Of a stretch of 64,000 nt of DNA, positions 1,323-16,857 are shown in pieces. The DNA is from Actinomycetes bacterium (GTDB taxonomy: Bacteria > Actinomycetota > Actinomycetes > Streptosporangiales > Streptosporangiaceae): positions 1-64,000 of the forward strand of contig JAJYTD010000002.1 in assembly GCA_021793235.1 (NCBI GenBank). The letters run 5' to 3'. The notes beneath the pieces were generated by a model that was given only the letters and a program-made list of their open reading frames with translations, searched no databases and was not told where the DNA came from. The position numbers were made by a program, and so were the translations under genes. Numbering within the stretch: position 1 is the stretch's first letter; each line of letters opens with the position of its first letter.

Positions 1323-1919
1323 GTGGTCGGGATCCGCCAGCAGCGCCAACAGCGCACCCGCGAGGCGCTGCTCGACGCCGCCGCGTCGGTATTCGCCAGC
1401 CACGGCTACGCTGGCGCATCGGTACCGCAGATCGCTCACGAGGCGGGGGTGTCCACCGGCGCGATCTATGCCAACTTCACCGGCAAGCAGGAGCTGTTCC
1501 TGGCCATGATGCGTCGGGTGGTCGAGGCCGGTGCAGCCGCGCGTCAACGATCCGCCGCGGAGACCACCGACCGTGACGAGCTGCTCAACCGGATGGTCAC
1601 CACCTGGACAGCTACGGTCGACACCGCCCCCGACATCGTGCTCCTGATGGCCGAGTTCTGGCTGTACGCGCTGCGGAATCCGCCGCACAATGAGCTCGTC
1701 GCCGAGCTGCTCGCCGACGTGCGAGCCAACCTCGCCGCCAGCATTGTCGGTGCCGGAGTGGTGCCGGACGCCGACCGGGCCGGGCGAATCGCCGTCGCGG
1801 TGCAGGCGGTGGCCTACGGCTACGCGATGCAGCGGTTGGTCGACGAGGACGCCGTGTCGCCGACGCAGCTGGTCGAAACGGTGGACTGGATCCTGCGGGG
1901 TGCCGTGCCCGCACGTTGA
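1323..1919 (+). CDS. TetR/AcrR-family transcriptional regulator
   Basis: A 198-residue one-component repressor. The N-terminal HTH runs from about residue 8 to 58 (RTREALLDAAASVFASHGYA, then VPQIAHEAGVSTGAIYANF), followed by an all-helical ligand domain of unknown specificity. I start it at GTG 1323, because the open frame upstream to 1194 has no TetR-like sequence. It precedes the hydrolase and OleC-like genes on the same strand, and a 26-bp near-perfect inverted repeat at 1955-1980 sits between it and them. The simplest reading is local repression of the downstream pair. The inducer is unknown. Confidence 0.85.
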   Translation: MVGIRQQRQQRTREALLDAAASVFASHGYAGASVPQIAHEAGVSTGAIYANFTGKQELFLAMMRRVVEAGAAARQRSAAETTDRDELLNRMVTTWTATVDTAPDIVLLMAEFWLYALRNPPHNELVAELLADVRANLAASIVGAGVVPDADRAGRIAVAVQAVAYGYAMQRLVDEDAVSPTQLVETVDWILRGAVPAR

Positions 1920-1954
1920 GGGGTTGTGGCGGCCATCACCTCCAAATAGCATCC

Positions 1955-1980
1955 ATTCGGCGAATGCTCATTCGCTGAAT
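1955..1980. promoter_or_regulatory. Inverted-repeat operator, likely for the TetR regulator
   Basis: Half-sites ATTCGGCGAATG (1955-1966) and CATTCGCTGAAT (1969-1980) flank a 2-base centre and match at 11 of 12 positions as an inverted repeat. Each half is itself nearly palindromic, as is common for TetR dimer-pair sites. It lies 36 bp after the regulator's stop and 20 bp before the hydrolase start, where it would cover that promoter. Confidence 0.7.
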
Positions 1981-2000
1981 TTGTGACATTGGAGGTCACG

Positions 2001-2909
2001 GTGAGCGATAGCGCGCAGCGAACCCCGGGTCCGGGTGACGGGTCGTCGCAGGGTTTGCCGTTGGAACGATTCCAGCACGGCGAGCTGGAACTCGCCGTGC
2101 GTCGGGCCGGGGACCACGGGCCGGGCGTGGTACTGCTCCACAACGGTGGCACCTCACACAGCATCTGGCGCCATCAGCTCGCTGATCTCGCCGACGGCCA
2201 CCGCGCGGTGGCCGTCGACCTGCCAGGCTTCGGCGCCGCTCCCCCGCCGCCGCGGCCGATCGACCTCGCGGCACACATCGAGCTGGTGTCGGCCCTGATC
2301 GAGCACGACGAGCTGGCTCCGGTCACCCTTGTCGGCAACTGCATGGGAGCGGCCATCGCCGCCGGCGTGGCTGCTCGCCGCCCCGGCCAGGTACAGGCGC
2401 TCGTTCTGATCAACCCGCTGACGGACGCGACGTTCCGCGCCGGCGGCCTGGGGCTACTGATGGCTCCCCCCGGGGTGTGGTCGACGGCGACCGCACCGAT
2501 GCGGGCGGCGCTCCGCCGGCTACGCGTCCCCCGCGCGCTCGCCCCGTGGGTGCTCCGCTTCCAGGTGGGCCCCGCCGGTGCACGCGCCGGCATTCATCAC
2601 GACCCGGAGCTGACGGCGTGCCTGCTCCGGGACGAGCAGGCACCGGCCCTGACCGACGTCCTCGCCGACCTGCCCGCCAGCTACCGCATCGTGCGCACTC
2701 CGGACGGGCCTCCCATGTGCACCATCTGGGGCGCTCGGAATCGGGTCCTGTCACCGAACGCAGGCGTCCGCCTCGACGCCTTGCTGCGTTCCGAGCGCCG
2801 CGTGCTCATCCGCGACGCCGGCCACCTGCCGATGCTTGAACGGCCAGACGAGGTGACCAACGCGATCCGTTCCTTCCTGAAGGACGTCGCCGCTTCTGAC
2901 AACGCATGA
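2001..2909 (+). CDS. Alpha/beta-hydrolase with a cysteine nucleophile
   Basis: A 302-residue alpha/beta-hydrolase-fold protein. The GTG at 2001 has GGAGGT four bases upstream, which is why I prefer it to the in-frame GTG at 1983. VVLLHNGG is the oxyanion-hole strand. The nucleophile elbow is GNCMG, with Cys114 where most esterases have Ser and OleB-type enzymes have Asp. His275 in AGHLPMLERPDEV is the expected catalytic His. It ends in an ATGA overlap with the region leading into the OleC-like synthetase, so the two are probably co-transcribed. The gene pairing suggests action on a beta-lactone, thioester or acyl product. The substrate is inferred, not shown. Dienelactone hydrolase is a known precedent for a Cys nucleophile in this fold. 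Confidence 0.85.
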   Translation: MSDSAQRTPGPGDGSSQGLPLERFQHGELELAVRRAGDHGPGVVLLHNGGTSHSIWRHQLADLADGHRAVAVDLPGFGAAPPPPRPIDLAAHIELVSALIEHDELAPVTLVGNCMGAAIAAGVAARRPGQVQALVLINPLTDATFRAGGLGLLMAPPGVWSTATAPMRAALRRLRVPRALAPWVLRFQVGPAGARAGIHHDPELTACLLRDEQAPALTDVLADLPASYRIVRTPDGPPMCTIWGARNRVLSPNAGVRLDALLRSERRVLIRDAGHLPMLERPDEVTNAIRSFLKDVAASDNA

Positions 2910-2938
2910 CCGGCATCGACGACCACGGAGGCAGTCCG

Positions 2939-4666
2939 ATGGCCAACCTGACACCCGATAGCGGGCAGCGGCCCGAAACGACCACCGACGGCAACGAGGC
3001 GACCACCCCCGACCGGATCCGTGTCGCCGACCTGGTCCTGGAGGTGGCGCGCGCCGACCCCGACCGCGTCGCCCTGGCCCAGACCACCAAGCGCCGCGAC
3101 GGCGGCCTGGTCTACCAGGAACGGACCTACGGCGAGCTGTCAGATCGCGCCGAACGGCTGGCCGTCGGCCTCCGCGCGGCCGGCGTCCGCGAGGGCACCC
3201 TCTGCTCGTTCATGGTGCCGCCGAGCTTTGACGCACTCGTGCTCGGGACGGCGCTGTTCCGGATCGGTGCCACGCTGGTGGGTATCGAACCGTTCAGCCA
3301 CGGTTTGCGGCGGGTGACCCGCTGCCTCGACCGGGTCGGTCCCGAGGTATTCTTCGGCACGCCGCGCGCGCACCTGGCCAAGCGGCTCTTCGGCTGGGGG
3401 AAGCGGACGGTGCGTCAGCAGTACGTCGTGGACGGCCGCTGGCCCGGTGTGAGGACGTTGGACGAAGTGCTGGCGGACACGGCTCCAGCCGAGCCGACAC
3501 CGGCGAACGTCGAGCCCGGTGATCCAGCCGTCATCGCCTTCACCACCGGCAGCACCGGAATGCCGAAACCCACGGTGCTCCGCCAGCGCAACTTCGCCGC
3601 CATGATCGAGCTGGTCAGAAACCAGTGGTCGCTCGGAAACGGCAGCGACGTGGTCGACATGCCGACGTTCCCGATGTTCTGGATCATCGCGCTGTCCTCC
3701 GGCGGACAGGTGGTGGTCCCGCCGATGGACTTCACCATGAAGGGGCCCGGCGACGCCGACCCGGCCGCGCTGCTGCGCACCATCGAGGAGCGTGGCGTCC
3801 GGTCGATGTTCGCGTCGCCGGCGCTGATGCAGAACCTGTTGGCGCACGCCCGCCAGAAGTCGATCACGATACCGAGCGTGCGCCGTATCGTCGCCGGGGG
3901 CGCCGAAGTCCGCGGTCCGCTGTACGCGGCGGCCCGGGACATGCTCAGCCCCGACGGCGAGCTGTACTCCAACTACGGCGCTACCGAGTCGCTCCCGCTG
4001 TGCGAGATCGACGGCACGACGGTGCTGAAGGAAACCTGGGAGCGCACCGAACGCGGCGAGGGCCTGTGCGTCGGTCCGGGGCTGCCCGGCGTCGAGCTGC
4101 GGATCGTGCCGGCGACCGAGGCCCCCATCGCGAACATCGGTGACGTCGAAGCGCTGCCACCGGGCGAGGTCGGTGAGGTCGTGGCCCGGAGTCCGCACAT
4201 CAGCGAGGACTACTTCCGTGATCCAGCCGCGACCGCGGCGAACAAGATCGCCGATCCGGACGGGGCGGTGTGGCACCGGTTGGGCGACGTCGGTTCCCTC
4301 GACGAGCAGGGTCGCCTGTGGCTTGGTGGACGGCGTTCGCACCGGGTCATCACCCCCGGCAAGGTCTACCTGCCGTTGCAGGTCGAGCCCGTCATAGCGA
4401 CCCATCCGGCCGTGCGGCGCGCGGCGCTGGTCGCCGTTCCCCGCGCGGGTAGCGTCGTCCCGGTGGTCTGCATCGAGCGCACCGACGACGACCGCCGCAA
4501 CGCCGATACGGTGACCGCCGAGCTGCGGAAGCTGGCGGACCGCTACGCGGCGACCCGGGGCATCACCGAGTTCGTCCAGGTGCGGCGCCTGCCGGTGGAC
4601 CGCCGACACAACGCCAAGATCGACCGGCCGGCGCTGGGCGCCAAGCTGGCCCGCCGTTGGAGGTGA
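2939..4666 (+). CDS. OleC-like AMP-dependent synthetase (putative beta-lactone synthetase)
   Basis: A 575-residue ANL-superfamily enzyme. I use the ATG at 2939, with GGAGG seven bases upstream, rather than the overlapping ATG at 2906. The nucleotide loop TTGSTGMPK lies at about 202-210. Beyond generic ANL features it carries blocks typical of OleC: MPTFPMF, FASPALMQN, YGATESLPL, VEPVIATHPAVRRAALV and LPVDRRHNAKI, with Lys560 as the C-terminal catalytic lysine. OleC converts beta-hydroxy acids to beta-lactones in olefin and beta-lactone pathways. No OleA thiolase or OleD reductase lies in the window, so the hydroxy-acid source is unknown. An ordinary fatty-acyl-CoA ligase is the main alternative, but those blocks argue against it. 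Confidence 0.78.
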   Translation: MANLTPDSGQRPETTTDGNEATTPDRIRVADLVLEVARADPDRVALAQTTKRRDGGLVYQERTYGELSDRAERLAVGLRAAGVREGTLCSFMVPPSFDALVLGTALFRIGATLVGIEPFSHGLRRVTRCLDRVGPEVFFGTPRAHLAKRLFGWGKRTVRQQYVVDGRWPGVRTLDEVLADTAPAEPTPANVEPGDPAVIAFTTGSTGMPKPTVLRQRNFAAMIELVRNQWSLGNGSDVVDMPTFPMFWIIALSSGGQVVVPPMDFTMKGPGDADPAALLRTIEERGVRSMFASPALMQNLLAHARQKSITIPSVRRIVAGGAEVRGPLYAAARDMLSPDGELYSNYGATESLPLCEIDGTTVLKETWERTERGEGLCVGPGLPGVELRIVPATEAPIANIGDVEALPPGEVGEVVARSPHISEDYFRDPAATAANKIADPDGAVWHRLGDVGSLDEQGRLWLGGRRSHRVITPGKVYLPLQVEPVIATHPAVRRAALVAVPRAGSVVPVVCIERTDDDRRNADTVTAELRKLADRYAATRGITEFVQVRRLPVDRRHNAKIDRPALGAKLARRWR

Positions 4667-4795: not shown

Positions 4796-4933
4796 ATGGA
4801 TGTGCTGGACGATGCGGCCCGCGTCGAATTCTTGTCAGTGTTGTCCCGGTTTCGCACTGATCCGCGGGAAAGCCTTCTCAGCCGCACCCTCGGGAGTGCA
4901 CACCCCCGGCCTCCCGGTCCGTACGGCGTTTGA
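4796..4933 (+). pseudogene. Remnant of an IS701-type actinomycete transposase N-terminus
   Basis: A short frame starts MDVLDDAARVEFLSVLSRFR and then degenerates to a stop after 45 codons. That opening matches, from memory, the N-terminus of a common actinomycete transposase family whose full length is several hundred residues. Nothing else of the element is visible before arsR. This would mark the left border of the arsenic island as a former insertion point. Confidence 0.35.
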
Positions 4934-4956
4934 CTCCGCCATACCGGCATGGTGGT

Positions 4957-4972
4957 ATCAATACATGTTGAT
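4957..4972. promoter_or_regulatory. ArsR operator overlapping the arsR start
   Basis: A perfect inverted repeat ATCAA-N6-TTGAT overlaps the ATG codons of arsR at 4965 and 4971. A repressor bound here would block its own expression. The same half-sites and spacing recur at 5948-5963 before acr3. Confidence 0.7.
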
Positions 4973-5282
4973 GTCTCAGAGGGACGCTGTTGCCGAGACG
5001 GCCGTGAACCTCTTCGGTGATCCGCTGCGAGCGCGGATCGTGGGACTGTTGGCGACCGAGCAGATGTGCACGTGCCATCTGATCGAGGAGACCGGCGCGC
5101 GCCAGCCGACCATCAGCCACCATCTGAGGGTGCTGCGCGAGGCCGGGCTGGTGGAGACCGAGCCCCGAGGGCGCTTCACCTACTACCGGCTGCGTCCGGA
5201 GGCGATCGCCGAGCTGGCCGCGGATCTGGGCGAACTCGCTGCTCGCGCGGAGCGGGCGCGGGAGAGCTACCGGCCGTGCTGA
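4965..5282 (+). CDS. arsR: ArsR-family metalloregulatory repressor
   Basis: A 105-residue winged-helix repressor. It starts at ATG 4965, or at 4971 two codons later; the longer frame up to 4800 runs through transposase debris and is not used. The recognition region reads ARQPTISHHLRVLREAGLVE. Cys35-Thr-Cys37 in QMCTCHLIEE is the Cys pair typical of As(III)-sensing ArsR proteins, so release of DNA on arsenite binding is expected. It opens the arsenic island. An ATCAA-N6-TTGAT site covers its own start and another lies in the arsC-acr3 divergent region. No strong ribosome site is visible, so it may be translated leaderless. Confidence 0.88.
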   Translation: MLMSQRDAVAETAVNLFGDPLRARIVGLLATEQMCTCHLIEETGARQPTISHHLRVLREAGLVETEPRGRFTYYRLRPEAIAELAADLGELAARAERARESYRPC

Positions 5283-5405
5283 CCGGTCGGCGGAGTGCGG
5301 TGGGCGCCGCCTCTCCGTGTGTCCTGCAGCACCCATGGCGACGTCCGCCTGTGTGGCGCCGGCCGTCGAGTCGGCCTCCAAGGCGCGGAACCATAGGACT
5401 TGGAT

Positions 5406-5432
5406 GCATCAAACACATGTCTACGTTGATGC
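5406..5432. promoter_or_regulatory. Spaced inverted repeat between arsR and arsC
   Basis: GCATCAA (5406-5412) and TTGATGC (5426-5432) form perfect 7-bp arms separated by 13 bases. The half-sites match those at 4957 and 5948, but the spacing is wider, so a weaker site or a loop element is possible. It lies downstream of both convergent genes, so its role is unclear. Confidence 0.35.
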
Positions 5433-5475
5433 GTGCTGATGTGATTGTTCACGGGCGCTTGAGGCGCCCCGGGGG

Positions 5476-5889
5476 TCAGCCGCGCACCGGGACCCCCAGC
5501 TCGGCCATCAGGACCTCGATACGGCGGCGGATCTCGTCGCGGATGGGGCGCACGGCCTCGACCCCCTGCCCGGCCGGGTCGTCGAGCTCCCAGTCGAGGT
5601 AGCGCTTGCCGGGGAAGACCGGGCAGGTGTCGCCGCACCCCATGGTGATCACGACATCGCTCGCCTCGACCGCGTCGATCGTGAGGAGCTTGGGCTGCTC
5701 ACCGGTGATGTCGATGCCGACCTCGCGCATCGCCTCCACCGCGGCCGGATTGATCGACTCGGCCGGGGCCGATCCGGCGGAGCGTACTTCTACCGCGCCT
5801 GCGGCCAGGCGGCTCAGCCAGCCGGCCGCCATCTGGGAGCGTCCGGCGTTGTGTACGCAGACGAAGAGCACACTGGGCTTGTCCGACAC
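5476..5889 (-). CDS. arsC: Arsenate reductase, low-molecular-weight phosphatase fold
   Basis: A 137-residue cytoplasmic reductase of As(V) to As(III). The phosphate-binding loop CVHNAGRS has catalytic Cys11. Cys85 and Cys89 in MGCGDTCPVFPG are the relay positions of the thioredoxin-coupled type, and YLDWELDDPAG is the typical acid loop. Actinobacterial relatives use either thioredoxin or mycothiol, and the sequence alone does not decide between them. It is transcribed away from acr3 across a region holding a perfect ATCAA-N6-TTGAT palindrome, so detoxified product would go straight to the Acr3 exporter. Confidence 0.92.
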   Translation of the reverse strand: MSDKPSVLFVCVHNAGRSQMAAGWLSRLAAGAVEVRSAGSAPAESINPAAVEAMREVGIDITGEQPKLLTIDAVEASDVVITMGCGDTCPVFPGKRYLDWELDDPAGQGVEAVRPIRDEIRRRIEVLMAELGVPVRG

Positions 5890-5947
5890 GGTGGTGACCC
5901 CTTCTTCTCAGCATGGCGTGGAGCGGCGCCCTGCGCACCCCTTTCTC

Positions 5948-5963
5948 ATCAACTATAGTTGAT
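5948..5963. promoter_or_regulatory. Perfect 16-bp ArsR operator in the arsC/acr3 divergent promoter
   Basis: ATCAACTATAGTTGAT is a perfect palindrome of the form ATCAA-N6-TTGAT, 58 bp from the arsC start and 65 bp from the acr3 start. One bound dimer could control both directions. Confidence 0.75.
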
Positions 5964-6028
5964 ATCAGCTTCTATCAATGTGACGGTGTGGGCGCCCCCA
6001 TGTGCCCGCGCGGTGAAAGGACACGAGG

Positions 6029-7129
6029 ATGGCGCAGGAAGCCCCCGCGGACACGTCGATATCCGGCGGTGCCGCACGGCTATCGACGCTGGACCGGTTC
6101 CTGCCGGTGTGGATCGGGCTGGCGATGGCCGCCGGGCTCGGTCTCGGCAGGCTCGTTCCCGGCCTGCAAGGCGCGCTTGAAGCGGTGCAGGTGGACGGTG
6201 TCTCCTTGCCGATCGCGTTGGGCCTGCTGCTCATGATGTATCCGGTGCTGGCCAAGGTCCGCTACGACCGCCTCGACACCGTCACCCGCGACTCCCGCCT
6301 GCTGGCCTCCTCGCTGGTGCTGAACTGGCTGGTGGGCCCGGCGGTGATGTTCGCGCTGGCCTGGATCTTCCTGGCTGACCTGCCCGAGTACCGTACCGGG
6401 CTGATCATCGTCGGGCTGGCCCGCTGCATCGCGATGGTCATCATCTGGAACGACCTGGCGTGCGGCGACCGCGAAGCCGCCGCTGTTCTCGTGGCACTCA
6501 ACTCCGTCTTCCAGGTCGCCGCGTTCGGCCTGCTCGGCTGGCTCTACCTCGATCTGCTGCCCGGATGGCTGGGCCTGTCCCAGAGCGGCATCGACGTCTC
6601 GGTCTGGCAGATCACCAAGAGCGTACTGATCTTCCTGGGCATCCCGCTGGTCGCGGGCTACCTCACCCGCACGCTGGGCGAGCGCGCACGGGGCCGGACC
6701 TGGTACGAGGAGCGGTTCCTGCCGAAGATCGGGCCGGTGGCGCTGTACGGCCTGCTGTTCACCATCGTGCTCCTGTTCGCCCTCCAGGGCGACGCCATCA
6801 CCTCCCAGCCCCTCGACGTCGCCCGCATCGCCATCCCGCTGCTGGTGTACTTCGCGGCGATGTGGGGGCTGTCCATGCTGCTGGGGCGGGGCATCCGGCT
6901 CTCCTACAAGCGCTCCACCACGCTGGCCTTCACCGCTGCCGGCAACAACTTCGAGCTGGCCATCGCGGTGGCGATCGGCGTGTTCGGCGTCACCTCCGGC
7001 CAGGCCCTGGCCGGGGTCGTCGGCCCCCTCATCGAGGTCCCGATGCTGGTCGCACTGGTCTATGTCTCCTTGTGGGCACGCCGCTTCTTCACCCACCGCA
7101 CCACGGGCCCGGCGGTGACCGGCCGCTGA
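6029..7129 (+). CDS. acr3: Arsenite efflux permease, ACR3 family
   Basis: A 366-residue inner-membrane carrier with about ten hydrophobic segments. It exports As(III), probably driven by proton motive force. Cys133 in GLARCIAMV and Glu309 in AAGNNFELA match the Cys and Glu that are essential in characterised Acr3 proteins. ATG 6029 has GAAAGGA seven bases upstream. It faces arsC across a shared operator region and converges on the ArsO-like gene. It is full length with no anomalies. Confidence 0.95.
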   Translation: MAQEAPADTSISGGAARLSTLDRFLPVWIGLAMAAGLGLGRLVPGLQGALEAVQVDGVSLPIALGLLLMMYPVLAKVRYDRLDTVTRDSRLLASSLVLNWLVGPAVMFALAWIFLADLPEYRTGLIIVGLARCIAMVIIWNDLACGDREAAAVLVALNSVFQVAAFGLLGWLYLDLLPGWLGLSQSGIDVSVWQITKSVLIFLGIPLVAGYLTRTLGERARGRTWYEERFLPKIGPVALYGLLFTIVLLFALQGDAITSQPLDVARIAIPLLVYFAAMWGLSMLLGRGIRLSYKRSTTLAFTAAGNNFELAIAVAIGVFGVTSGQALAGVVGPLIEVPMLVALVYVSLWARRFFTHRTTGPAVTGR

Positions 7130-7174
7130 ACCGGCCGCTGCGCAGCGTGCGAGCGCCCCGACCCGAGCCGGTGT

Positions 7175-8215
7175 TCACCGCACTTTCAGGCGGTTCAGGA
7201 CGTAGCGGGCGTCGCGGCCGACACCGCGCAGGGTGGCCGAGGAGAAGCTGCGCTGGAACTCCAGGCCCACATACCCCAGGCCGGGCACGGTGGTGGAGAC
7301 GCCTCCACGGTGCAACGGGCGGCCGCCGGCATCCAGCGCGCCGGTGCCCTCCAGGTAGTCCAGGACGGGCCGGTAACCGGTGGCCAGGATGACGGTGTCG
7401 ACCTTTTCGACGCCGCCGTCGGCCCACTCCACCTTGTCGGCCTCCAGGCGGGTGAACATCTCCCGCCGGTCGGGGTTACCGGAGGCGAACGCGGCGCGGT
7501 ACCGGCCGTCGTCGTTGACCAGGGTCGGCCCCTTCTGCCAGACCTCGCGCAAGGGAGCGGCGTCCAACCCGCTGCGGACGAACCACCAGTGGATGTCGCG
7601 GCCCAGCGGACACTGGTCGACCCACGCCACCGGTGCGCGGGTGGCCAGGCTCACCCGGGCCACCCGCGCGAGTTCGGCGGCGATCTGCACGCCGGAGTTG
7701 CCGCCGCCCACCACTACGACCCGCTGCCCGGCGAACGGTTCGGGAGCACGGTAGTCGGCGGTGTGCAGGGCGGTTCCGGTGAAGGCCGCCAGCCCGGGCA
7801 GCGCGGGCCGGTGCGGGCGGGAGAAGCCCCCGCTCGCGGCGATCACCGCGCGCCCGCCGATCCGCGCGCCGTCGGCCGTGGTGACGGTGAATCCGCCGCG
7901 GTCGCGCACCACTGAGGTGACCCGTTGTCCATAGCGGATATCGGCATCCAGGTCCGCGGCGTAGGCGCGCAAGTAGGCCACCACCTCATCGCGCAGCGGG
8001 TAGCGGTCCTGGTCCCCGGGCAGCCGCCGTCCGGGCAGGGCGGAGAAGCGGGCCGGTGAGAACAGGACGAGGCTGTCGTAGTAGTGCGGCCAGGATCCGC
8101 CCGCCTGATCGGCGGCATCTAGCACGAGCGTGCGCACGCCGCGCCGGGCGGCGGCGTGGGCGGTGGCCAGCCCGGACTGGCCGGCGCCGATGATGAGCAG
8201 AGGGGAGCCGGACAT
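7175..8215 (-). CDS. arsO: ArsO-like FAD/NAD(P)-dependent flavoprotein monooxygenase
   Basis: A 346-residue two-dinucleotide flavoprotein. The FAD Rossmann motif IIGAGQSGLA is at the N-terminus and the NAD(P) motif VVVGGGNSGVQ near the middle, followed by an ATGYRPV motif. The overall layout is that of YhcS/CzcO-like and ArsO proteins often found in ars operons. ATG 8215 has GAGGAG six bases upstream. It is first in neither direction: it follows the MFS and ArsT genes on the same strand and is probably read with them. The redox substrate is not known, and the ArsO name is by family and context only. Confidence 0.75.
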   Translation of the reverse strand: MSGSPLLIIGAGQSGLATAHAAARRGVRTLVLDAADQAGGSWPHYYDSLVLFSPARFSALPGRRLPGDQDRYPLRDEVVAYLRAYAADLDADIRYGQRVTSVVRDRGGFTVTTADGARIGGRAVIAASGGFSRPHRPALPGLAAFTGTALHTADYRAPEPFAGQRVVVVGGGNSGVQIAAELARVARVSLATRAPVAWVDQCPLGRDIHWWFVRSGLDAAPLREVWQKGPTLVNDDGRYRAAFASGNPDRREMFTRLEADKVEWADGGVEKVDTVILATGYRPVLDYLEGTGALDAGGRPLHRGGVSTTVPGLGYVGLEFQRSFSSATLRGVGRDARYVLNRLKVR

Positions 8216-8299
8216 GGAGAACTCCTCGAAAAGGGGTGTCTGGGCAGGGGAGGCAAGGGAGGGCGCGGCATCGGGGCCGCCGCCCTGCCGGAGGGAGAA

Positions 8300-9550
8300 T
8301 CAGGGTGAGCGGCGGGGGCTACGGGCCGCTGTTCGGGTGAATCCGGCGGCCAGGGCGCCGAGCGCGCCGAGTCCGGCCAGTACGGCGAACGTGGCGGGGT
8401 AGCCGCCCAGCGGTCCGGCCAGTGCGGCGCCGCCCCACGGGGCCAGGGCGATCGCCAGCATGAGCGGGGTGTGCAGGATGCCGTTGAGCGTGGCGTAGCG
8501 TTCGGTTCCCCACCGGTCGGCCACGGCGGTGGCCTGCAGCAGGGTGAAGATGCCGCGCGCCATCCCGGCCAGCAGCGCGACCGCCATGACGAGGGCTACC
8601 GGGGTGGCCACCATTGCGAGCAGCCCGGTCGTGGCGGAGCACGCGGCGAGCACGGCCACCGACCGGGCCACCGGCCCGGCGCGGCGTTCCAGCGGCGCGT
8701 AGGCGAGCCGTCCCAGGACCTGCCCGATCCCGCCGATCCCCAGTGCCCATGCGGCGGTCGCGGCGCTGAATCCCCGGGCGTCCAGCAACGGGACAAGATT
8801 GACCACGACCGCATAGACCCCGAACGCTCCCAGCGTGAGGGCAAGGGTCAAAGCAAGGAACGCCCGGCTGGCGGCGACGGAGCCGACCGCGCCCGCCCTG
8901 GTGGATACGGTGCCGCGCCCGGGATCGGCCGCACGCCGCCAGGGCGGGGTCAGGGCGAGGAGGTGCAGCGGCACCACGATGAGGGCGAAGATGAACGCCA
9001 GGGCCAGGTAGGTGCCGCGCCAGCCCACAGCATGTTCCAGCGCTGCCGTCAAAGGCGCGAAGATCGTGCTGGCCAGCCCTGCGACCAGGGTCAGCGCCGT
9101 CAACGCCCGCACCCTGCCGTGCCCGTACCAGCGGGTGATGGCGGCAAAAGCCGGCGGGTAGAACAGCCCGGCCATTGTCGCCCCGGCCAGCATCCAGGCG
9201 GCCGTGAACCCCCACAGCCCCGGTGCCAGCGCGATCGCCGCCAGTGCCGGGACTGCCGCAACAGCGCCGACGCTCATGACGATGCGCGGACCGGCGGCCT
9301 CCAGCCACCGCCCGACCACCGCCCCGCCGAGCCCCGCCACGACCTGGGAGCCCGAGAACACCGCGGTGACCACTGTCAGCGACCACCCGGTATCGGCGCT
9401 GATCGCCGGGGCCAGCACCGGGAAGGCGTAGAACAGCACCCCGTAGCTGGTGGTCACTGTGATGCACAGTGCTACCAGTGCCCGGTGCGCCCGCGGAGCG
9501 GCCGGTACCGCCGCGGGCGCACCGGGCACCGCTGCCAACCGGTGCCTCAC
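8300..9550 (-). CDS. MFS transporter of the arsenic operon
   Basis: A 416-residue, 12-segment major facilitator. I start it at GTG 9550, where GTGA overlaps the stop of the upstream ArsT gene; the longer frame to 9667 lies inside ArsT. Tight coupling to ArsT and position in the island point to export of an arsenical or of a product of the oxidoreductases. MFS exporters in ars operons include ArsK (trivalent organoarsenicals) and ArsJ (1-arseno-3-phosphoglycerate). No GAPDH gene, the partner of ArsJ, is present, so an ArsK-like role fits better. Substrate is inference. Confidence 0.8.
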   Translation of the reverse strand: MRHRLAAVPGAPAAVPAAPRAHRALVALCITVTTSYGVLFYAFPVLAPAISADTGWSLTVVTAVFSGSQVVAGLGGAVVGRWLEAAGPRIVMSVGAVAAVPALAAIALAPGLWGFTAAWMLAGATMAGLFYPPAFAAITRWYGHGRVRALTALTLVAGLASTIFAPLTAALEHAVGWRGTYLALAFIFALIVVPLHLLALTPPWRRAADPGRGTVSTRAGAVGSVAASRAFLALTLALTLGAFGVYAVVVNLVPLLDARGFSAATAAWALGIGGIGQVLGRLAYAPLERRAGPVARSVAVLAACSATTGLLAMVATPVALVMAVALLAGMARGIFTLLQATAVADRWGTERYATLNGILHTPLMLAIALAPWGGAALAGPLGGYPATFAVLAGLGALGALAAGFTRTAARSPRRSP

Positions 9551-10893
9551 GTCAGGACGGCGGAGGCCGGGCGCGCCGGCTCGACCGGTTCTGGGCCGGT
9601 GCCACAGCACCCGCCCTCGGCCTCCGTTTCCGCCTCCGAGGCAGTGGGGAGCCCCAAGCCCATGCACACCCCGGTCTCGGGCAGGGTCAGTTCCACCTTC
9701 GCGGCGGCCTCGTGGTCGCCCGCGATCGCCGCGGCGATACTGCGCACCTGCTCGAACCCTGTCAGCGCCAGGAACGTCGGGGCGCGGCCGTAGGACTTCA
9801 TCCCGGCCAGGTAGAAGCCGGGCTCGGGGTGGGACAGCTCGGCCGCGCCGTGCGGGTAGACGGTTCCGCAGGAGTGCACGTTCGGGTCGATCAGCGGCGC
9901 CAGCTCCACCGGCGCCTGCAGGGCGGCGTCCAGGCCCAGGCGGATCTCCGACAGCGGCGACAGGTCGGGGCGGAACCCGGTCAGCGCCACGATCTCATCG
10001 ACCGGAGCCAGCTCCCGGCCCTCCTCGTCGGCCAGTACCACACTGGCGTCGGTGGTGCGCGCCTCGGCGGTACGGAACCCGGTGACGACCTCGATGTGCC
10101 CGGCCTCCACGGCCTTCTTCGCCCGCTCCCCCAAGGCTCCGCGCGCCGCGAGCTGATCGGCCGCGCCGCCGCCGAAGGCATCGCCGACCTCGCCCCGGCG
10201 CAGCACCCAGAGCACGCGCGTGCCGGGAACCTCCTCGGCGAGGTCCGCCAAGGCCACCAGGGTGGTCAGCGCCGAGTGCCCGCTCCCTGCCACAGCGGTG
10301 CGCCGGCCGGCGTAGCGGGCACGGACCTCCTCGGTGCCCAGGTCCGGGATCCGGTGGGAGATCCGGTCGGCGGCGGCCGCTTCACCGAGGGCGGGCAGGC
10401 CGTCGCCGCCCAGCGGGTTGGGTGATCCCCAGGTGCCCGAGGCGTCGATGACCGCGCGGGCGAGGACGTGCTCCTCGCCGCCGCCAGCGGTGCGCACGCA
10501 CACGGTGAACGGCTGCTCCTCGCGCCCGGCGTCCACCACCCGGTCGCGGCCCCGGCGGCTCACCCCGACGACCTCCGCGCCAAAGCGCACACGGTCGCCC
10601 AGGGCTTCGGCCAGCGGCTCCAGATAGGAGCCCGCCCACTCCGCTCCCGTGGGGTAGGCGTCGTCGGCCGGACGCTGCCAGCCCGTGGCGGCGAGCAGCT
10701 TCTCCGCTGCCGGATCCACCAGGTCCCGCCACATCGAGAACAACCGCACGTGCCCCCACTCGCGCACCGCGGCACCGGCACGGCTCTCCTTCTCCAGCAC
10801 CACCACCGGCAGAGCCCGCTCGGTGATCTCCGCGGCGGCGGCCAGCCCCACAGGCCCGGCCCCGATCACCACGACCGGAAGTCCTCCTGCCAT
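9547..10893 (-). CDS. arsT: ArsT-like FAD-dependent oxidoreductase
   Basis: A 448-residue flavoprotein with VVVIGAGPVGLAAA at the N-terminus and a second dinucleotide motif AVAGSGHSAL near the centre, then ALTGFRPDLSPL. There is no classic thioredoxin-reductase CxxC, but a C-terminal GGCCGTG holds vicinal cysteines that could bind arsenite. ATG 10893 has an AGGGA six bases upstream; in-frame starts further up run into the operator region. Proteins of this type occur in actinobacterial ars operons under the name ArsT. Its promoter region carries three ATCGA-N6-TCGAT sites shared with the divergent arsR-arsN fusion. Confidence 0.75.
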   Translation of the reverse strand: MAGGLPVVVIGAGPVGLAAAAEITERALPVVVLEKESRAGAAVREWGHVRLFSMWRDLVDPAAEKLLAATGWQRPADDAYPTGAEWAGSYLEPLAEALGDRVRFGAEVVGVSRRGRDRVVDAGREEQPFTVCVRTAGGGEEHVLARAVIDASGTWGSPNPLGGDGLPALGEAAAADRISHRIPDLGTEEVRARYAGRRTAVAGSGHSALTTLVALADLAEEVPGTRVLWVLRRGEVGDAFGGGAADQLAARGALGERAKKAVEAGHIEVVTGFRTAEARTTDASVVLADEEGRELAPVDEIVALTGFRPDLSPLSEIRLGLDAALQAPVELAPLIDPNVHSCGTVYPHGAAELSHPEPGFYLAGMKSYGRAPTFLALTGFEQVRSIAAAIAGDHEAAAKVELTLPETGVCMGLGLPTASEAETEAEGGCCGTGPEPVEPARPASAVLT

Positions 10894-10986: not shown

Positions 10987-11847
10987 ATGACCGCGCCGAT
11001 CCCCGCCCCCGCCCTACCGACACTGGCGCCCGCCGACGCTGAGACCTACGCTTCCTGGTTCGCCTGCCTCGCAGAGCCCACCCGGGTCCGCCTGCTGCAC
11101 ACCATCGCCTCCCGACCGGGAACCGTCAGCGTCGGCGACCTGGCCGACGCGCTCGGGATCGGCCAGCCCACCGTCTCCCACCACCTGCGCAAGCTGGCCG
11201 AGGTCGACTTCATCACCCTCACCAAGGAAGGCACCTCCACCCGGGTGGCGATCAACCCGGCCTGCTGCACCGGGCTGCCGCACGCCGCCGACGCCGTCAT
11301 GGGCCTGCTCGCCTCCCGCCCCTGCTGCCCCACCGACCTGCCCGAAGACGTAACGGTGCGGGCTATGGAAACCGACGACTTCGGCGCCGTGCGCCGCGTC
11401 TACGCCGACGGCATCGCCACCGGAAACGCCACCTTCGAGACCGAGGTCCCCGACATCGAGGCGCTCGACGCGAAGTGGCTGAAAGAGCACCGGTGGGTGG
11501 CCGAGATCGACGGCGAGGTCGTGGGTTGGGCCGCCCTCACCCCCGTCTCGACACGGGAGGTCTACGCCGGTGTCGCCGAGAACTCCCTCTACGTCGGCGA
11601 CGGCGCCCGCGGGCGCGGCGTCGGCAAGGCGCTGATCCACCGGCAGGTCACCGCGGCCGACGCCGGCGGCCTGTGGACCCTGCAGACCTCGATCTTCCCC
11701 GAGAACAAGCCCGCCCTCGCCCTGCACCACAGCGCCGGCTTCCGCACCCTCGGCGTCCGCGAACGCATCGCCCGCCATCACGGGGTCTGGCGCGATACCA
11801 TCATGCTCGAACGCCGCCGCGACGACAGCTGCCAGCCCGCCGATTGA
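10987..11847 (+). CDS. ArsR repressor fused to an ArsN-type GNAT acetyltransferase
   Basis: A 286-residue two-domain protein. Residues 15-105 are an ArsR winged helix (GIGQPTVSHHLRKLAEVDF) with Cys-Cys pairs at NPACCTG and SRPCCPT that could bind As(III). From about residue 118 a GNAT domain follows (VTVRAMETDDFGAVRRVYADG, VAEIDGEVVGWAAL, GDGARGRGVGKALIH), of the phosphinothricin acetyltransferase/ArsN1 type. ArsN1 N-acetylates arsinothricin and phosphinothricin. The gene is divergent from ArsT over three operator sites. The fusion would place a resistance enzyme under its own sensor. Substrate is inferred from family; fused ArsR-ArsN proteins are known but not common. Confidence 0.85.
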   Translation: MTAPIPAPALPTLAPADAETYASWFACLAEPTRVRLLHTIASRPGTVSVGDLADALGIGQPTVSHHLRKLAEVDFITLTKEGTSTRVAINPACCTGLPHAADAVMGLLASRPCCPTDLPEDVTVRAMETDDFGAVRRVYADGIATGNATFETEVPDIEALDAKWLKEHRWVAEIDGEVVGWAALTPVSTREVYAGVAENSLYVGDGARGRGVGKALIHRQVTAADAGGLWTLQTSIFPENKPALALHHSAGFRTLGVRERIARHHGVWRDTIMLERRRDDSCQPAD

Positions 11848-12035
11848 CCGCATTCGGCCCCGGTACGGGCAGCGGGCCGGCTCGGGCCTTGCGACGTTGG
11901 CGAGTCGGCCGCACTGGTAACCGGGTCTGGACGGATCCGCGAATGGCCGGGGAGAGCAGGCCGCGTGGACTACCCTCGGTTCCGCGGGGGTCCTCCGCCC
12001 GGACCCGCCTCGGCCCCACCGGAGAGAACACCCCC

Positions 12036-12740
12036 ATGCGACTTCCCCGACCTTTCCGAACCGCGCGAACGGTGCGCCTGCGCTACGTCCCGCCCCGCAG
12101 GGTGCGCGATTGCGAGTTCCGCTTCGCGACCCTCGTGGGCACCGCGTCGTTCGGCTTCCTCCTCGCCATGCCGCTGTTCACCCTCTTTGTCCCCGATAGC
12201 CTCGCCGAGGGGCACGGCCTGCTCGAGGCGCTATGGCTGCCGAACACCCGGAACCTGACCATCTCCGTAGCGGTGTGCGTCCTGCTCTTCGCGGTGCTCA
12301 GCGTTGTATACACCTTCGGTGTTCCACGCACGCTCACGCGCCGCGCGATCAAGGTGGGCGATGCCGGAATCGTGGTGATCGAGCGCCCGGTATGGCGGTT
12401 CACCGGCCCTTTTCCCCTCATCGGCTGGGAGGACGTGCGGGCGATCGACGCGAGCACGCCCTTCTTCCGGGAGGGGCCCCAACTCCGGTCCGCCATGCGA
12501 GCCGTACTCGACATCCACCTGTTGCGCGACGTGCCCGGCCTTCCCTCCTTCGCCGCCTGCGAACGCGTGGACACCCCCGGGCTCCTAGGCGCCGGCTCCG
12601 CCGCCTACCGCGTACGCATCGGCGGTCCGGGCCAACTCCTGCAGCGCGACGTCCACCGACTGGCCGGCACGCTGCAGAAGGCACGCCCCGACCTCTGGCG
12701 CGGGTTCGACGCCGCCTCCAATGACGCATCGGGAGACTGA
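12036..12740 (+). CDS. Membrane protein with two N-terminal segments, unknown function
   Basis: A 234-residue protein. ATG 12036 follows GGAGAG at a suitable distance; the open frame further upstream overlaps the arsR-arsN gene in another frame and is not used. Two hydrophobic segments lie at about residues 29-50 and 68-90, followed by a cytosolic domain of about 140 residues with a beta-rich, PH-like feel (IKVGDAGIVVIERPVWRF, LIGWEDVRAIDAS). This is a common layout in small actinobacterial membrane proteins. No family recognised. It converges on the M48 peptidase pair. Confidence 0.7.
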   Translation: MRLPRPFRTARTVRLRYVPPRRVRDCEFRFATLVGTASFGFLLAMPLFTLFVPDSLAEGHGLLEALWLPNTRNLTISVAVCVLLFAVLSVVYTFGVPRTLTRRAIKVGDAGIVVIERPVWRFTGPFPLIGWEDVRAIDASTPFFREGPQLRSAMRAVLDIHLLRDVPGLPSFAACERVDTPGLLGAGSAAYRVRIGGPGQLLQRDVHRLAGTLQKARPDLWRGFDAASNDASGD

Positions 12741-12903
12741 CCCGTTCAAGCCCGCGCCCGATGCAAGGCCGCCCATCCCCGCCGTGCCGAATGGCGGATT
12801 CCGCGGTCCAGCGGTTCGGCCCGGAGCCCGGGTACCGAGTGCCGGATACGCCCGGCCGCTGCACGGATCCTCCGGCGCGGCGCCCCTTCGCGGTCGGCCC
12901 TGC

Positions 12904-13983
12904 TCAGCCCCGAGCGCGCGTCGCCATGTCCCGCGCGTCCCCTTCCAGCAGCGCCACGCGCCGGGCGGTGCGGGGATGGGACCGGAATATCCAGTCGATG
13001 AACCGGAGCAGTGCTTCCTCGTCCTTGTCGGGCTTTTGGAACGGAAGGATCGCCAGCGGCACCCCGTGGGCCAGCTCCCGCAGGTCCTTCTTGGGTACCG
13101 CCAGCATCCCGCCCTCGAGTTCTCGCAGAGCGGACGCCAGCCGCGCCGGCGCCCCGGTCAGCTCGGCGGCCCCCCGGTCCGCGGCCAGCTCGCGACGCCG
13201 GGAAAGCCGGTACAGCGCGACATAGCCGGGCAGGCAGACGATGGCCGCCGGTATGCCCAAACTCAGGACCACCACGCACATCAGGGTGATCAGGACCGTC
13301 CGCGCCGTGCCCAGCAGCACCAGGAGCAAAGCCGCGATCAGCAGCGGTGCCCGGCGTTCGGGCGCGGGGGCGCTCTGCCCGTCTTCGCTTTCCTTCTCGA
13401 ACACCGGTGTCCATGGGCGCCCGCACCAGCGCGCCGCCTCGCACAGCAGCGGGTCGAGCTTCTCGACGACGGGGACCAGGCTGACGGGCAGCCACGCCAC
13501 TCCGCCGGCCATCGCTTCAGCGAAGACCATTACCCGTGCGTCCCGATGGGCGATGTGTGCGAACTCGTGGGCGAGCACGGATTCCAGCAGCGGGTTGTCC
13601 AGTTGCTCCAGCAGCCCCCGGCTGACGCACAGGGTCGGACGGCGCTCGCCTTTGGCTACGTACACCAGAGAGTTGGGGGCCTCGGTCTCCATGATCCGCA
13701 GGATCGGCTTCTCCTGCCCGGACAGTGCGCACAACCGGTCCACTACGGCGTGCAGCCGCGGTTCGTCCTCCTCGGCGGCGTCAGTGAGCTTCGCCTTCAC
13801 GGGAGGATCGCTGCTCACCCCGATGATGATCTCCGCCACCACGATCGATACGACCCCGGGGACCACCCCGATCCACCAGGGCAGGCCGAAATACCACGCC
13901 AGGACGCACACCAGGACCGTGTACCCCGCCGTCGTCATCGCGAGCAGCAGCCACGCCCCAAGTACCGGCCACACCGTTCTCAT
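12904..13983 (-). CDS. M48-family membrane zinc metallopeptidase, copy A
   Basis: A 359-residue protein starting MRTVWPVLGAWLLLA at ATG 13983; the frame continues to 14139 without a family match. Two membrane segments come first, then the zinc motif HEFAHIAHRDARV and, after two more hydrophobic segments, RRRELAADRGAAEL, which holds the downstream Glu zinc ligand. This is the HtpX/Ste24-like architecture used in membrane protein quality control. It lies 65 bp after a close paralogue (14049-15155) on the same strand, so the pair is a tandem duplication, probably co-transcribed. Substrate unknown. Confidence 0.85.
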   Translation of the reverse strand: MRTVWPVLGAWLLLAMTTAGYTVLVCVLAWYFGLPWWIGVVPGVVSIVVAEIIIGVSSDPPVKAKLTDAAEEDEPRLHAVVDRLCALSGQEKPILRIMETEAPNSLVYVAKGERRPTLCVSRGLLEQLDNPLLESVLAHEFAHIAHRDARVMVFAEAMAGGVAWLPVSLVPVVEKLDPLLCEAARWCGRPWTPVFEKESEDGQSAPAPERRAPLLIAALLLVLLGTARTVLITLMCVVVLSLGIPAAIVCLPGYVALYRLSRRRELAADRGAAELTGAPARLASALRELEGGMLAVPKKDLRELAHGVPLAILPFQKPDKDEEALLRFIDWIFRSHPRTARRVALLEGDARDMATRARG

Positions 13984-14048
13984 CGCCGCCTCCGCACATC
14001 CATCCCGGCAAAAATAGAGGCCATTCTCCATCCCCCGCAAATACGGCC

Positions 14049-15155
14049 CTACGGCCTTGCCATGCTCCGCGACATCTGCTGCAGCTGCACCATCCGCTTG
14101 CCCATCGGCGGATGTGTCCGGTTCGCCCAGGCCATCCACCGGTCATGGGAGTCCGCGTCTGGAGAAGCGGGGACCTCGAACGCGACGATGGCCTGCGGGA
14201 GCGCGTCCGCCATCAGACGCAGATCCTCTGCCGGCGCACGGTGCATGCCGCCCTCGATCGCCCCCAGCGCGGCAGCCAGCACCGACGGCGCCCCGGTCAC
14301 CTCGGCTGCCGCGCGGTCGGCGGCGAGCTCCCGGCGCCGGGCCAGCCTGCCGGCAGCGGCATAGCCGGGGACCATCATCCAGATCACCCCCAGCCCCAGC
14401 GTCATCATCGTGGTGATGACTATGGTCCACACGGCGCCCCGGAGCAGGCCGGCGAGCACCAGCAGTGGCGGCACCAGCACCCGCGGCACTCTGCGCCGGG
14501 GGGCGGGCGTGTCCTCCTTCTCTTCCCTCTCTTCGGCGACCGCGCTCCACGGACGTCCGCACAGCCGCGCGAGCGCGCACGCCGGGACCTCCAGGTAGAA
14601 CACGCCGATGCTGAAGAAACCGAGCAGTATCGCCCCCAGCCCAGGGAAGGCCAGCGCCACCGCCTGTGCGATCCCCATGACCCGGGTGTCGCGGTGGGCG
14701 ATGTGTGCGAGCTCGTGGGCGGCGACCGCCTCCAGCTGCGGATTGTCCAGCCGCTCCAGCAGCCCCCGGCTGACGTACAACTGGGGCGGCAGGTCATTGG
14801 GAACGCGGACCAGCGCGTTGGGTATGTCGGTCTCAAGGATCCACAGGGTCGGCTTGTCCTGCCCGGACAGCGCGCACGCCCGGTCCACCACGGCATGCAG
14901 GCGCGGCTCGTCCGCCGCATCGGCGATGGTGGCCTCCACCGGTATGGCGCTTCCCTCCCCGGCAGTCCATCCGATGACCCCCATCGCCAGCACCACGACC
15001 AGCGGTGCCAGCCCCAGCCACCAGGGCAACCAGACTACGCCGACCAGCCGCAGCACTGCGCAGCACAGTGCGGTGTAGCCGACCGTCACCGCTGCGAGCA
15101 GCAGCCACGCCCCAAGAACCGGCCAGACCGTTTTCAATTTCCCAAGCGCTCTCAC
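14049..15155 (-). CDS. M48-family membrane zinc metallopeptidase, copy B
   Basis: A 368-residue paralogue of the downstream gene with the same plan: an N-terminal KTVWPVLGAWLLLAAV segment pair, HELAHIAHRDTRV as the zinc motif, two more membrane segments and RRRELAADRAAAEV. The two share long near-identical stretches, including the N-terminus, the VVDRxCALSGQ block and the zinc helices. They differ mainly in loop and tail regions, so the duplication is not recent enough to be identical. It is first of the pair and would be transcribed first. An HtpX-like role is inferred from architecture only. Confidence 0.85.
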   Translation of the reverse strand: MRALGKLKTVWPVLGAWLLLAAVTVGYTALCCAVLRLVGVVWLPWWLGLAPLVVVLAMGVIGWTAGEGSAIPVEATIADAADEPRLHAVVDRACALSGQDKPTLWILETDIPNALVRVPNDLPPQLYVSRGLLERLDNPQLEAVAAHELAHIAHRDTRVMGIAQAVALAFPGLGAILLGFFSIGVFYLEVPACALARLCGRPWSAVAEEREEKEDTPAPRRRVPRVLVPPLLVLAGLLRGAVWTIVITTMMTLGLGVIWMMVPGYAAAGRLARRRELAADRAAAEVTGAPSVLAAALGAIEGGMHRAPAEDLRLMADALPQAIVAFEVPASPDADSHDRWMAWANRTHPPMGKRMVQLQQMSRSMARP

Positions 15156-15227
15156 AGAGAGAATCTAACGGCCGCACCGCTTTGCGGCGCAAGGCTTCTG
15201 CGGCGGCGTCGCGCGGGGCGGGTTCCC

Positions 15228-16073
15228 TCACCGCGACTTGCCGGGCGTGCCGCCCCCTTGTATACGGCCCATCGGCTCTTCCGGGGCACGGCGGCCGATC
15301 CTGCTGTTGTGGTAGGCGAGCTCACGTACCGAGGCCAGCCAGCGGGGCGCCATCGGCAGCTCCGCAGGCCGGTTCAGCATCGGGTCGAACGAGAGCTGAC
15401 CGGCTTCGGCCGGAGAGAGCACGGTGTGCAGGGTCAGCCACGCGGCGGGCTGCCAGTCCCCCCGCACCGGGCCCACCAGCAGAACGAACCGCACCGGCCG
15501 GACCCGCACCCGCCGCTCCAGCCGGTACAGGCAGGCCGGGGCGATAGGGTCGCCGCCTTGCGGTACCGCGAGCAGCCACATCGCCCGCCCACCGCTGCGG
15601 TAGGGGATGATACTGCCGTAGCGGGCCCGCCCCCAGCCGCGGGCGGGCAGCGGGAGCATCCGGGTCAGCCTTCCGATACCCGAAGCCGACAGGGCCAGAT
15701 CCCACGGGCCCGCCAGGCCGCGGCCCGGCGGGATCCGCACCGCCAGCCCCAGCACATCCGTGCCCCCACCGGGGATCCCGGCTCCCTTGGAAAGGCGGGC
15801 GGTCACCGGTGTGGTCCCCTCGGGCAGTGGAAGCACACCGCCGGACCCGGCGGACAGCTCCCCCGAAAACCACACGCCCCGGGGGTGGAACGCACGAGCC
15901 CGACGTACCCGCGCGAGCCCGCGGAAGGCCGCGGCCAGCAGCCGGGAGCCGATCGTCTCTGTCCCCTCCGCGTCCGGAGTGCTCGATCGTTTCCGCACAC
16001 CGACCGACTGCCCCAGCGGCCACGGCGTAACCGCACAGCCCACCGCACCGTGACACCATCCGCCTCCCGGCAA
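15228..16073 (-). CDS. Conserved-looking protein of unknown function
   Basis: A frame of up to 281 residues. The N-terminal 25 residues are weak, and GTG codons at 16004 or 15998 are equally likely starts. The body has RARAFHPRGVWFSGEL, ARLSKGAGIPGGG, TDVLGLAVRIP, RYGSIIPYRSGG and LTLHTVLSPAEAGQLSFDP. This order (HP-G-W, RLSKG, D-LG-A-R, YGSI-PYR) recalls, from memory, actinobacterial proteins distantly related to catalases, but I see no heme-ligand motif and do not assign a function. There is no membrane segment or signal peptide. It is downstream of a four-segment membrane protein on the same strand. Confidence 0.6.
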   Translation of the reverse strand: MPGGGWCHGAVGCAVTPWPLGQSVGVRKRSSTPDAEGTETIGSRLLAAAFRGLARVRRARAFHPRGVWFSGELSAGSGGVLPLPEGTTPVTARLSKGAGIPGGGTDVLGLAVRIPPGRGLAGPWDLALSASGIGRLTRMLPLPARGWGRARYGSIIPYRSGGRAMWLLAVPQGGDPIAPACLYRLERRVRVRPVRFVLLVGPVRGDWQPAAWLTLHTVLSPAEAGQLSFDPMLNRPAELPMAPRWLASVRELAYHNSRIGRRAPEEPMGRIQGGGTPGKSR

Positions 16074-16193
16074 GCCCGCAGCCGCTGTCGGCGCCCGGCG
16101 GACCGGACCGGCGCGCCAAGAGAGGCCTGGCCAACAGCAGCGACCGCGGCCGCGGAGCCGGACGGCTGCGCAGGCTTTGCTGCGGATGCCTGT

Positions 16194-16223
16194 CCGCGGT
16201 TCAGAGGACCGCGGTTCAGAGGA
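16194..16223. repeat. 15-bp perfect tandem duplication at a gene end
   Basis: CCGCGGTTCAGAGGA occurs twice in direct succession (16194-16208 and 16209-16223). The second copy contains the stop codon of the membrane protein gene at 16216-16218. Because 15 bp is five codons, frame is kept, and the first copy lies just past the stop. Confidence 0.8.
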
Positions 16224-16707
16224 GCTTCGAGCGGCTCCGGCGCGCCGCGGCGCGGTCGGCCCAAAGCCGCACGTGCAGCACCCCGTAGGCGATGAGGGAG
16301 ACCAGGGCGTAGGCGAACGGACCGTTGAACACGAACGCCAGTGTCAGTTCCGCGCCGGCCACCAGTGCGAGCAGGCTCATCACCACCAGTCCCGCCACCA
16401 CAATGGTGTAGGTCCACACCAGGCCCACGAGCAGCCCGCGCGGCGGGCGTCCCCACCCGTGCGTCAGCGCCAGCGTGGCAAGGCCCAGCCCCAAGGCACT
16501 GACGGACGGAAGATAGACCCAGGCGAACAGGCCGACGCTCATCGGCAGATCCGCACGGGCAGCGTCCGTCTGGTTGATGACGAGGTGCGCGACCGCGAGC
16601 AGCGCCGTCGAGGCCGCGGCGAGGGCGCCGATCCGCCGGGTTCCTCTCCGGTCGGCCGGTCGCCGCTGAGCCGTTGTCCCCGACCCGGGCAGAGTGTTGC
16701 GGCTCAT
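16216..16707 (-). CDS. Four-segment integral membrane protein, unknown function
   Basis: A 163-residue protein. An Arg-rich N-terminus (about 28 residues) precedes four hydrophobic segments near residues 28-44, 58-82, 92-113 and 118-145, and a basic C-terminus follows. This resembles small actinobacterial membrane proteins placed next to a TetR gene. It is divergent from the EthR-like regulator at 16858 with 150 bp between starts. A CCCGCT-N2-AGCGGG inverted repeat at 16801-16814 could be a shared operator. The regulator may control it, for example as a resistance or permeability protein. That is inference from position only. Confidence 0.7.
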   Translation of the reverse strand: MSRNTLPGSGTTAQRRPADRRGTRRIGALAAASTALLAVAHLVINQTDAARADLPMSVGLFAWVYLPSVSALGLGLATLALTHGWGRPPRGLLVGLVWTYTIVVAGLVVMSLLALVAGAELTLAFVFNGPFAYALVSLIAYGVLHVRLWADRAAARRSRSKLL

Positions 16708-16857
16708 GATCCGCGTCCCTTCGTGTTCACCGTTTGGCGCTGCCTACCAGGATCGCGCCGTATCCCGACCCTTCTCATCCCCCGCAGGAGGGAACACTCC
16801 CCCGCTGAAGCGGGAAAGCGCGACAGGAGCACCGAGCACCAGGGTTAGTCTCGGCAC

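Follow-up and report, generated by a model that had tools for sequence, protein, structure and literature searches.

A predicted OleC plus cysteine-hydrolase module outside the Ole pathway in an actinobacterial genome

What does an OleC-type beta-lactone synthetase do when its gene lies beside a hydrolase gene and a TetR regulator, away from OleA and OleD? The question is raised by a locus near the start of a 64,000-nucleotide stretch (the window) from an Actinomycetes bacterium of the family Streptosporangiaceae (GenBank assembly GCA_021793235.1, contig JAJYTD010000002.1). Position 1 of the window is the first base of the contig, and the host genome measures 4.82 Mb and is 99.97% complete. 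Interest in beta-lactone synthetases stems from the inhibition of proteases and lipases by their products, and the search for such enzymes relies on OleA and OleD neighbors. An earlier note on this DNA had described the locus as a minimal unit that could activate or detoxify a hydroxy acid made elsewhere, or produce a small beta-lactone signal. The comparisons below indicate instead a distinct "OleC plus Cys-hydrolase" module, composed of the synthetase and an alpha/beta-hydrolase-fold protein (ABH), rather than a stripped-down version of that pathway.

Against the broad PRK09274 model, the synthetase scored 533.6 bits (cut-off of 478), while on the OleC equivalog models it reached 421 bits for Xanthomonas (cut-off of 900) and 388 bits for Shewanella (cut-off of 850). 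Canonical actinobacterial OleCs encoded beside OleA and OleD were likewise below these cut-offs (497 to 561 and 372 to 440 bits, respectively), and other members of the synthetase clade described below scored 416 to 426 and 367 to 370 bits. None of the remaining proteins of the host genome reached 1e-30 with the Xanthomonas OleC model. In a tree of 47 rows containing OleC homologues and coenzyme A (CoA) ligases, the OleC family was split from the CoA ligases with support values of 100/99, and the synthetase was found on the OleC side. Inside the family it belongs to a separate clade of 14 rows, also supported at 100/99, which comprises the window sequence, six Nocardiopsis, five Acidimicrobiia (with names at the rank of class, order or family: Acidimicrobiia, Acidimicrobiales and Microthrixaceae), a genome of the host's family (G024) and an anaerobe of the host's phylum (G284). 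One further member from the Acidimicrobiia (G589) was found beyond the tree, raising the number of loci to 15. A second tree, from which most of the long branches were removed, again showed the clade and the separation from CoA ligases, and each of the remaining OleC groups (lipstatin/nocardiolactone-like, polyketide synthase [PKS]-linked ole and oleABCD clusters) occupied one side of a branch in it. The unit is closest to those of Nocardiopsis, whose synthetases are 80 to 83% identical. The OleC signatures HRxGD and PVDxRHN(A/S)K are present in the clade and absent from five CoA ligases of the host genome. On the basis of tree and motifs we reject a CoA ligase identity for the synthetase, and both bear out its assignment to the OleC family; the earlier note had proposed this phylogeny and named clustering with ordinary CoA ligases among the outcomes that would speak against its reading, and no such clustering was seen.

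Five loci from genomes of the host's family (L041, L042, L043, L044 and L047, at about 11400 to 19500 or in the first 8 kb) carry OleA-like, OleC, OleD and OleB genes beside an open reading frame (ORF) of ~2500 to 2700 residues, presumably a PKS. They possibly represent a PKS-linked type of ole cluster that forms an OleC clade of its own.

The neighborhood of the synthetase also sets the clade apart. OleA and/or OleD homologues adjoin all 25 of the OleC homologues placed in the tree outside the clade, and neither was found beside the synthetase at any of the 15 clade loci. The absence of both from the window, already pointed out by the earlier note, extends to whole genomes, that of the host included. 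Scores with a profile built from seven OleAs did not exceed 143 bits in the 14 clade genomes searched, compared to 370 to 522 bits in three controls. With a profile of seven OleDs, the host genome had no match at 1e-25, and the others among the 15 clade genomes gave at most 155 bits versus 320 to 520 in controls. The weaker matches of both profiles are presumably FabH-type and generic short-chain dehydrogenase/reductase proteins. The constant neighbor is ABH. In 14 loci its gene lies immediately upstream of the synthetase gene, in the same orientation. At the G024 locus the two genes are divergent, with a small gene between them, within about 1 kb. At that of G284 the pair is divided between the ends of two contigs: an N-terminal piece of the synthetase closely follows the ABH stop codon and continues on the other contig.

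Within the synthetase, one change concerns the A4 motif. Trp259 is found in 13 of the 14 clade members, G284 having Leu, and the aligned position in other OleCs is Ala or Gly (Val in one). The CoA ligases of the host genome carry P(L/M)FH or PLAH at A4, and Trp259 aligns with their A4 His. We infer that a small A4 residue (Ala/Gly) is a defining feature of the OleC family; by this measure the clade stands apart with its Trp or Leu. The P-loop also differs, with KP in clade synthetases and KG or KA in other OleCs. This pattern suggests that OleC-type catalysis may have been kept and the substrate changed, probably to one without the second long alkyl chain added by OleA. Structure prediction for the synthetase gave a model of only moderate quality (predicted local distance difference test [pLDDT] of 74.8), and claims about the pocket were not drawn from it.

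The partner enzyme also departs from the Ole pathway. ABH has a nucleophile elbow GNCMG (Cys120), Asn253 at the acid position and the base His281, all invariant in twelve full-length members and in G284, and true OleBs show HDWGG, Asp and His at the same positions of the family alignment. With the Asp nucleophile and the Asp acid replaced by invariant Cys and Asn, an OleB identity is ruled out, and ABH matches OleB weakly. In a profile alignment, the Ser of GNSMG in PDB 6i8w corresponds to Cys120 and the Asp of WGDRDRVL to Asn253, and in the AlphaFold model of ABH (pLDDT of 84.5) Cys120, Asn253 and His281 follow the expected strands. We rejected another candidate for the triad acid, located after strand 6, because this position is D, E, A or R and hence not conserved. 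By fold and sequence, the nearest solved structures are esterases, a phospholipase and the enol-lactonase PcaD. A Cys combined with an Asn is compatible with acyl transfer, and the Cys-Asn-His set suggests thioester chemistry, that is, acyl transfer or thioester cleavage.

Two relatives of the hydrolase were detected elsewhere. In G374 (L098:6032-7685), a Cys-Asn-His hydrolase lies next to a divergent TetR gene without an adjacent synthetase, and the same contig encodes a lipstatin-type OleC at a distance of ~70 kb. In G315 (L099:7070-8011), the relative keeps the Cys and Asn and has GCGYAAP in place of the catalytic His.

The pairing of the synthetase with a hydrolase, a TetR gene of its own and a palindromic operator, noticed before, also held up. 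The putative operator TTCGGCGAATGCTCATTCGCTGAA pairs at 10 of the 12 positions of its dyad. The homologous site of N. listeri, TTCAGAGAATGATCATTCTCTGAA, pairs at all 12, and those of N. alkaliphila and strain JB363 pair at 11, with paired changes in the two halves; the sites of N. kunsanensis and strain ATB16-24 are less symmetric. An adjacent conserved palindrome, as expected of a TetR autoregulatory unit, is thus present as a predicted operator. Its chance expectation within the window was 0.04, and allowing up to three mismatches it occurred as a single copy in the 4.8 Mb host genome (the reversed control gave 0 matches). Since it was found nowhere else in the genome, TetR most likely controls this unit only, and a wider regulon that could point to the substrate was rejected. 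A scan for sigma-70 promoters gave no match. The regulator has orthologues at the same place in six Nocardiopsis species (73 to 83% identity) and is orthologous across seven Nocardiopsis-type loci. Elsewhere in the clade the regulators vary: at L029 the TetR encoded immediately upstream is unrelated, L032 has a 55% relative of that protein at ~2 kb, and at L090 a TetR with a similar N-terminal sequence lies at ~1.7 kb. The best NCBIfam match of the host TetR was the ScbR autoregulator-binding family, at 66 bits, far below the cut-off of 150.

A conserved larger cluster was considered and rejected, as flanking genes change from one locus to the next in most of Nocardiopsis, and Nocardiopsis and Acidimicrobiia differ in them as well. 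No gene beyond the unit is common to all Nocardiopsis loci, with L026, L027 and L028 sharing several flanking genes, and the unit is present in 6 of 40 Nocardiopsis species. Its behavior is therefore that of a self-contained module with a patchy distribution. The "minimal unit" of the earlier note does not fit a separate OleC-family clade with a constant non-OleB partner and a changed pocket residue.

Metabolic context is available solely from the anaerobe G284 (L100:1-8482 and L061:1-1480). There, the ABH-synthetase pair comes last in a series of genes that share one orientation and are divided between the ends of two contigs. The other genes of the series encode a glycyl-radical enzyme, an acyl ligase and two (R)-2-hydroxyacyl-CoA dehydratase-like subunits. 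The best model for the glycyl-radical enzyme was PFL2-3 (568 bits, below the cut-off), and the dehydratase-like subunits scored 222 and 126 bits, well below their cut-offs. This context suggests small-acid rather than long-chain chemistry.

Taking these data together, we see about an even chance that TetR, ABH and the synthetase form a stand-alone, ligand-regulated two-enzyme module that combines activation of a non-Ole acid with Cys-thioester handling. TetR would repress the pair from its single operator until bound by the substrate or the product. The synthetase would adenylate a free acid; the likeliest substrate is a beta-hydroxy acid that is small or unbranched and devoid of the second long alkyl chain of OleC substrates, with Trp259 as the candidate gate of the pocket, judging from the alignment. 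The enzyme would then close the acid to a beta-lactone, which is plausible, or hold it as acyl adenylate (acyl-AMP). The Cys enzyme would handle the same acyl group through a Cys-thioester, either releasing the acid, ahead of its activation, from a thioester with CoA or a carrier, in replacement of the OleA release step, or accepting the activated acyl group and then transferring or hydrolyzing it. The family and clade of the synthetase, its partner, the catalytic-site residues, the operator sequence and the absence of OleA and OleD are observed; substrate class, lactone, order of steps and TetR ligand are what we infer here. More tentatively, the pair might represent a new two-enzyme chemistry, in which OleC-type activation or lactonization of a small non-Ole substrate is joined to an acyltransferase of the alpha/beta-hydrolase fold with a Cys-His-Asn triad where Ser/Cys/Asp-His-Asp is usual, working aerobically under TetR and in an anaerobic glycyl-radical-enzyme operon. 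Several points weigh against the module as proposed. The metabolic context derives from a single divergent member (G284, 42% identity), which also has Leu at the position where the alignment-based pocket reading relies on Trp259. Moreover, the Cys-Asn-His relative in G374 lies away from any synthetase, so this set of residues is not confined to the pair.

Other explanations share part of this evidence. The synthetase may no longer lactonize and instead make acyl-AMP, with the Cys enzyme as an acyltransferase that moves the acyl group to a small molecule or a protein. The fit of Cys with Asn to acyl transfer in general enzymology, the KP of the P-loop in place of KG or KA, the Trp in place of a small pocket residue and the constancy of ABH as a partner all favor this version, but the OleC-specific C-terminal residues are fully kept, so that lactone-type chemistry may persist, and the proposal names no acceptor; we consider it rather unlikely. 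A role of the unit in producing a beta-lactone that serves as a signal or inhibitor, with TetR as the receptor and ABH as the self-protection or turnover enzyme, seems improbable. OleC relatives with adjacent OleA, OleD and nonribosomal peptide synthetase (NRPS) genes do resemble the beta-lactone clusters described in PMC7064751, and the best-matching family of TetR is ScbR. However, that match is weak, TetR domains cross-match widely, the regulators differ in Acidimicrobiia, and genes for export or tailoring are not conserved next to the unit.

The two remaining possibilities are both very unlikely. A shortened olefin pathway, in which ABH would decarboxylate the beta-lactone made by the synthetase, draws on the fact that OleB is likewise an alpha/beta hydrolase adjoining OleC, but the Asp nucleophile and Asp acid of OleB are Cys and Asn in every ABH member, the match between the two is weak, and there is no OleA to supply the branched acid. 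An ordinary fatty-acid CoA ligase next to an unrelated esterase would agree with the broad family name given by NCBI ("fatty acid CoA ligase family protein"); it is contradicted by the 100/99 separation in the tree, the missing CoA-ligase motifs and the conservation of the hydrolase partner over large distances.

Both protein folds and the OleC family are already known. In the literature searched, we found no report of an OleC and Cys-hydrolase pair, nor any account of the separateness of the clade, the Cys-Asn-His partner or the genome-wide lack of OleA and OleD, although key subscription papers lay outside the search and an earlier notice is possible. Rules based on OleA and OleD neighbors would overlook this clade of synthetases. 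Its existence points to a recruitment of OleC chemistry away from the Ole pathway, together with a partner unlike OleB and classical esterases in its catalytic residues. The pair probably performs a chemical step not yet described, on a substrate differing from that of the Ole pathway, and the compact set of three genes is a directly testable system.

The features of the locus are listed in Table 1. Domain matches confirmed the three ORFs of the earlier note where it had placed them, and the OleC-like sequence blocks that it quoted were found in the synthetase. The true start of ABH is probably GTG 2001, preceded by GGAGG at 1991; this motif and the start codon region align across seven species. 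For the synthetase, the start is probably ATG 2939, which is preceded by GGAGGCAGTCCG and agrees with the ribosome-binding site and start in relatives. With these refined starts the two genes would be 29 nucleotides apart rather than overlapping. Directly downstream, an arsenic-resistance block (4800 to 9667) comprises an ArsR-type regulator, an ArsC-type reductase (5476 to 5889, minus strand), an ACR3 efflux pump above the model cut-off (6029 to 7129), and an ArsO-like flavin monooxygenase (7175 to 8215) and an ArsK-like major facilitator superfamily transporter (8300 to 9667), both on the minus strand and under their model cut-offs.

Table 1. Features of the TetR-ABH-synthetase locus, in window positions
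Feature	Positions	Strand	Evidence or remark
TetR-family regulator, BetI-type C-terminal domain	1323-1919	+	PF00440 9e-17, PF13977 3e-9
24-bp palindromic putative operator TTCGGCGAATGCTCATTCGCTGAA	1956-1979		Between TetR and ABH genes, directly before ABH ribosome-binding site
Alpha/beta-hydrolase-fold protein (ABH)	1983-2909	+	PF00561 4e-23, PF12697; Cys120/Asn253/His281
OleC-family ATP-dependent synthetase (ANL superfamily)	2906-4666	+	AMP-binding PF00501 2e-50; PRK09274; tree; signature residues

Among known systems, the closest is OleC of oleABCD, which shares with the synthetase its family in the tree, the HRxGD and RHN(A/S)K signatures and an adjacent alpha/beta-hydrolase gene. However, the synthetase is only about 33 to 39% identical to OleCs encoded beside OleA and OleD, falls in its own clade and scores about 80 to 140 bits lower on the Xanthomonas model (421 versus 497 to 561). 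OleC also has Ala or Gly at A4 where the host has Trp, is accompanied by OleA and OleD, both absent from the host genome, and has OleB as its partner instead of a non-OleB hydrolase. The lipstatin/nocardiolactone-type homologues (loci L073 and L074) belong to the same family and similarly lack the OleB Asp hydrolase, but their loci contain OleA-like, OleD and NRPS genes, none of which is found in the host unit. The beta-lactone decarboxylase OleB resembles ABH in fold and in adjoining an OleC-type enzyme, although its residues are Asp-Asp-His rather than Cys-Asn-His and sequence similarity is weak. Closest to ABH are the phospholipase A of PDB 6i8w, a 4uhc-type esterase and the enol-lactonase PcaD, with a template-modeling (TM) score of about 0.7 and 20 to 25% identity; the aligned 6i8w and 1j1i have Ser/Asp/His, whereas the ABH family has Cys/Asn/His.

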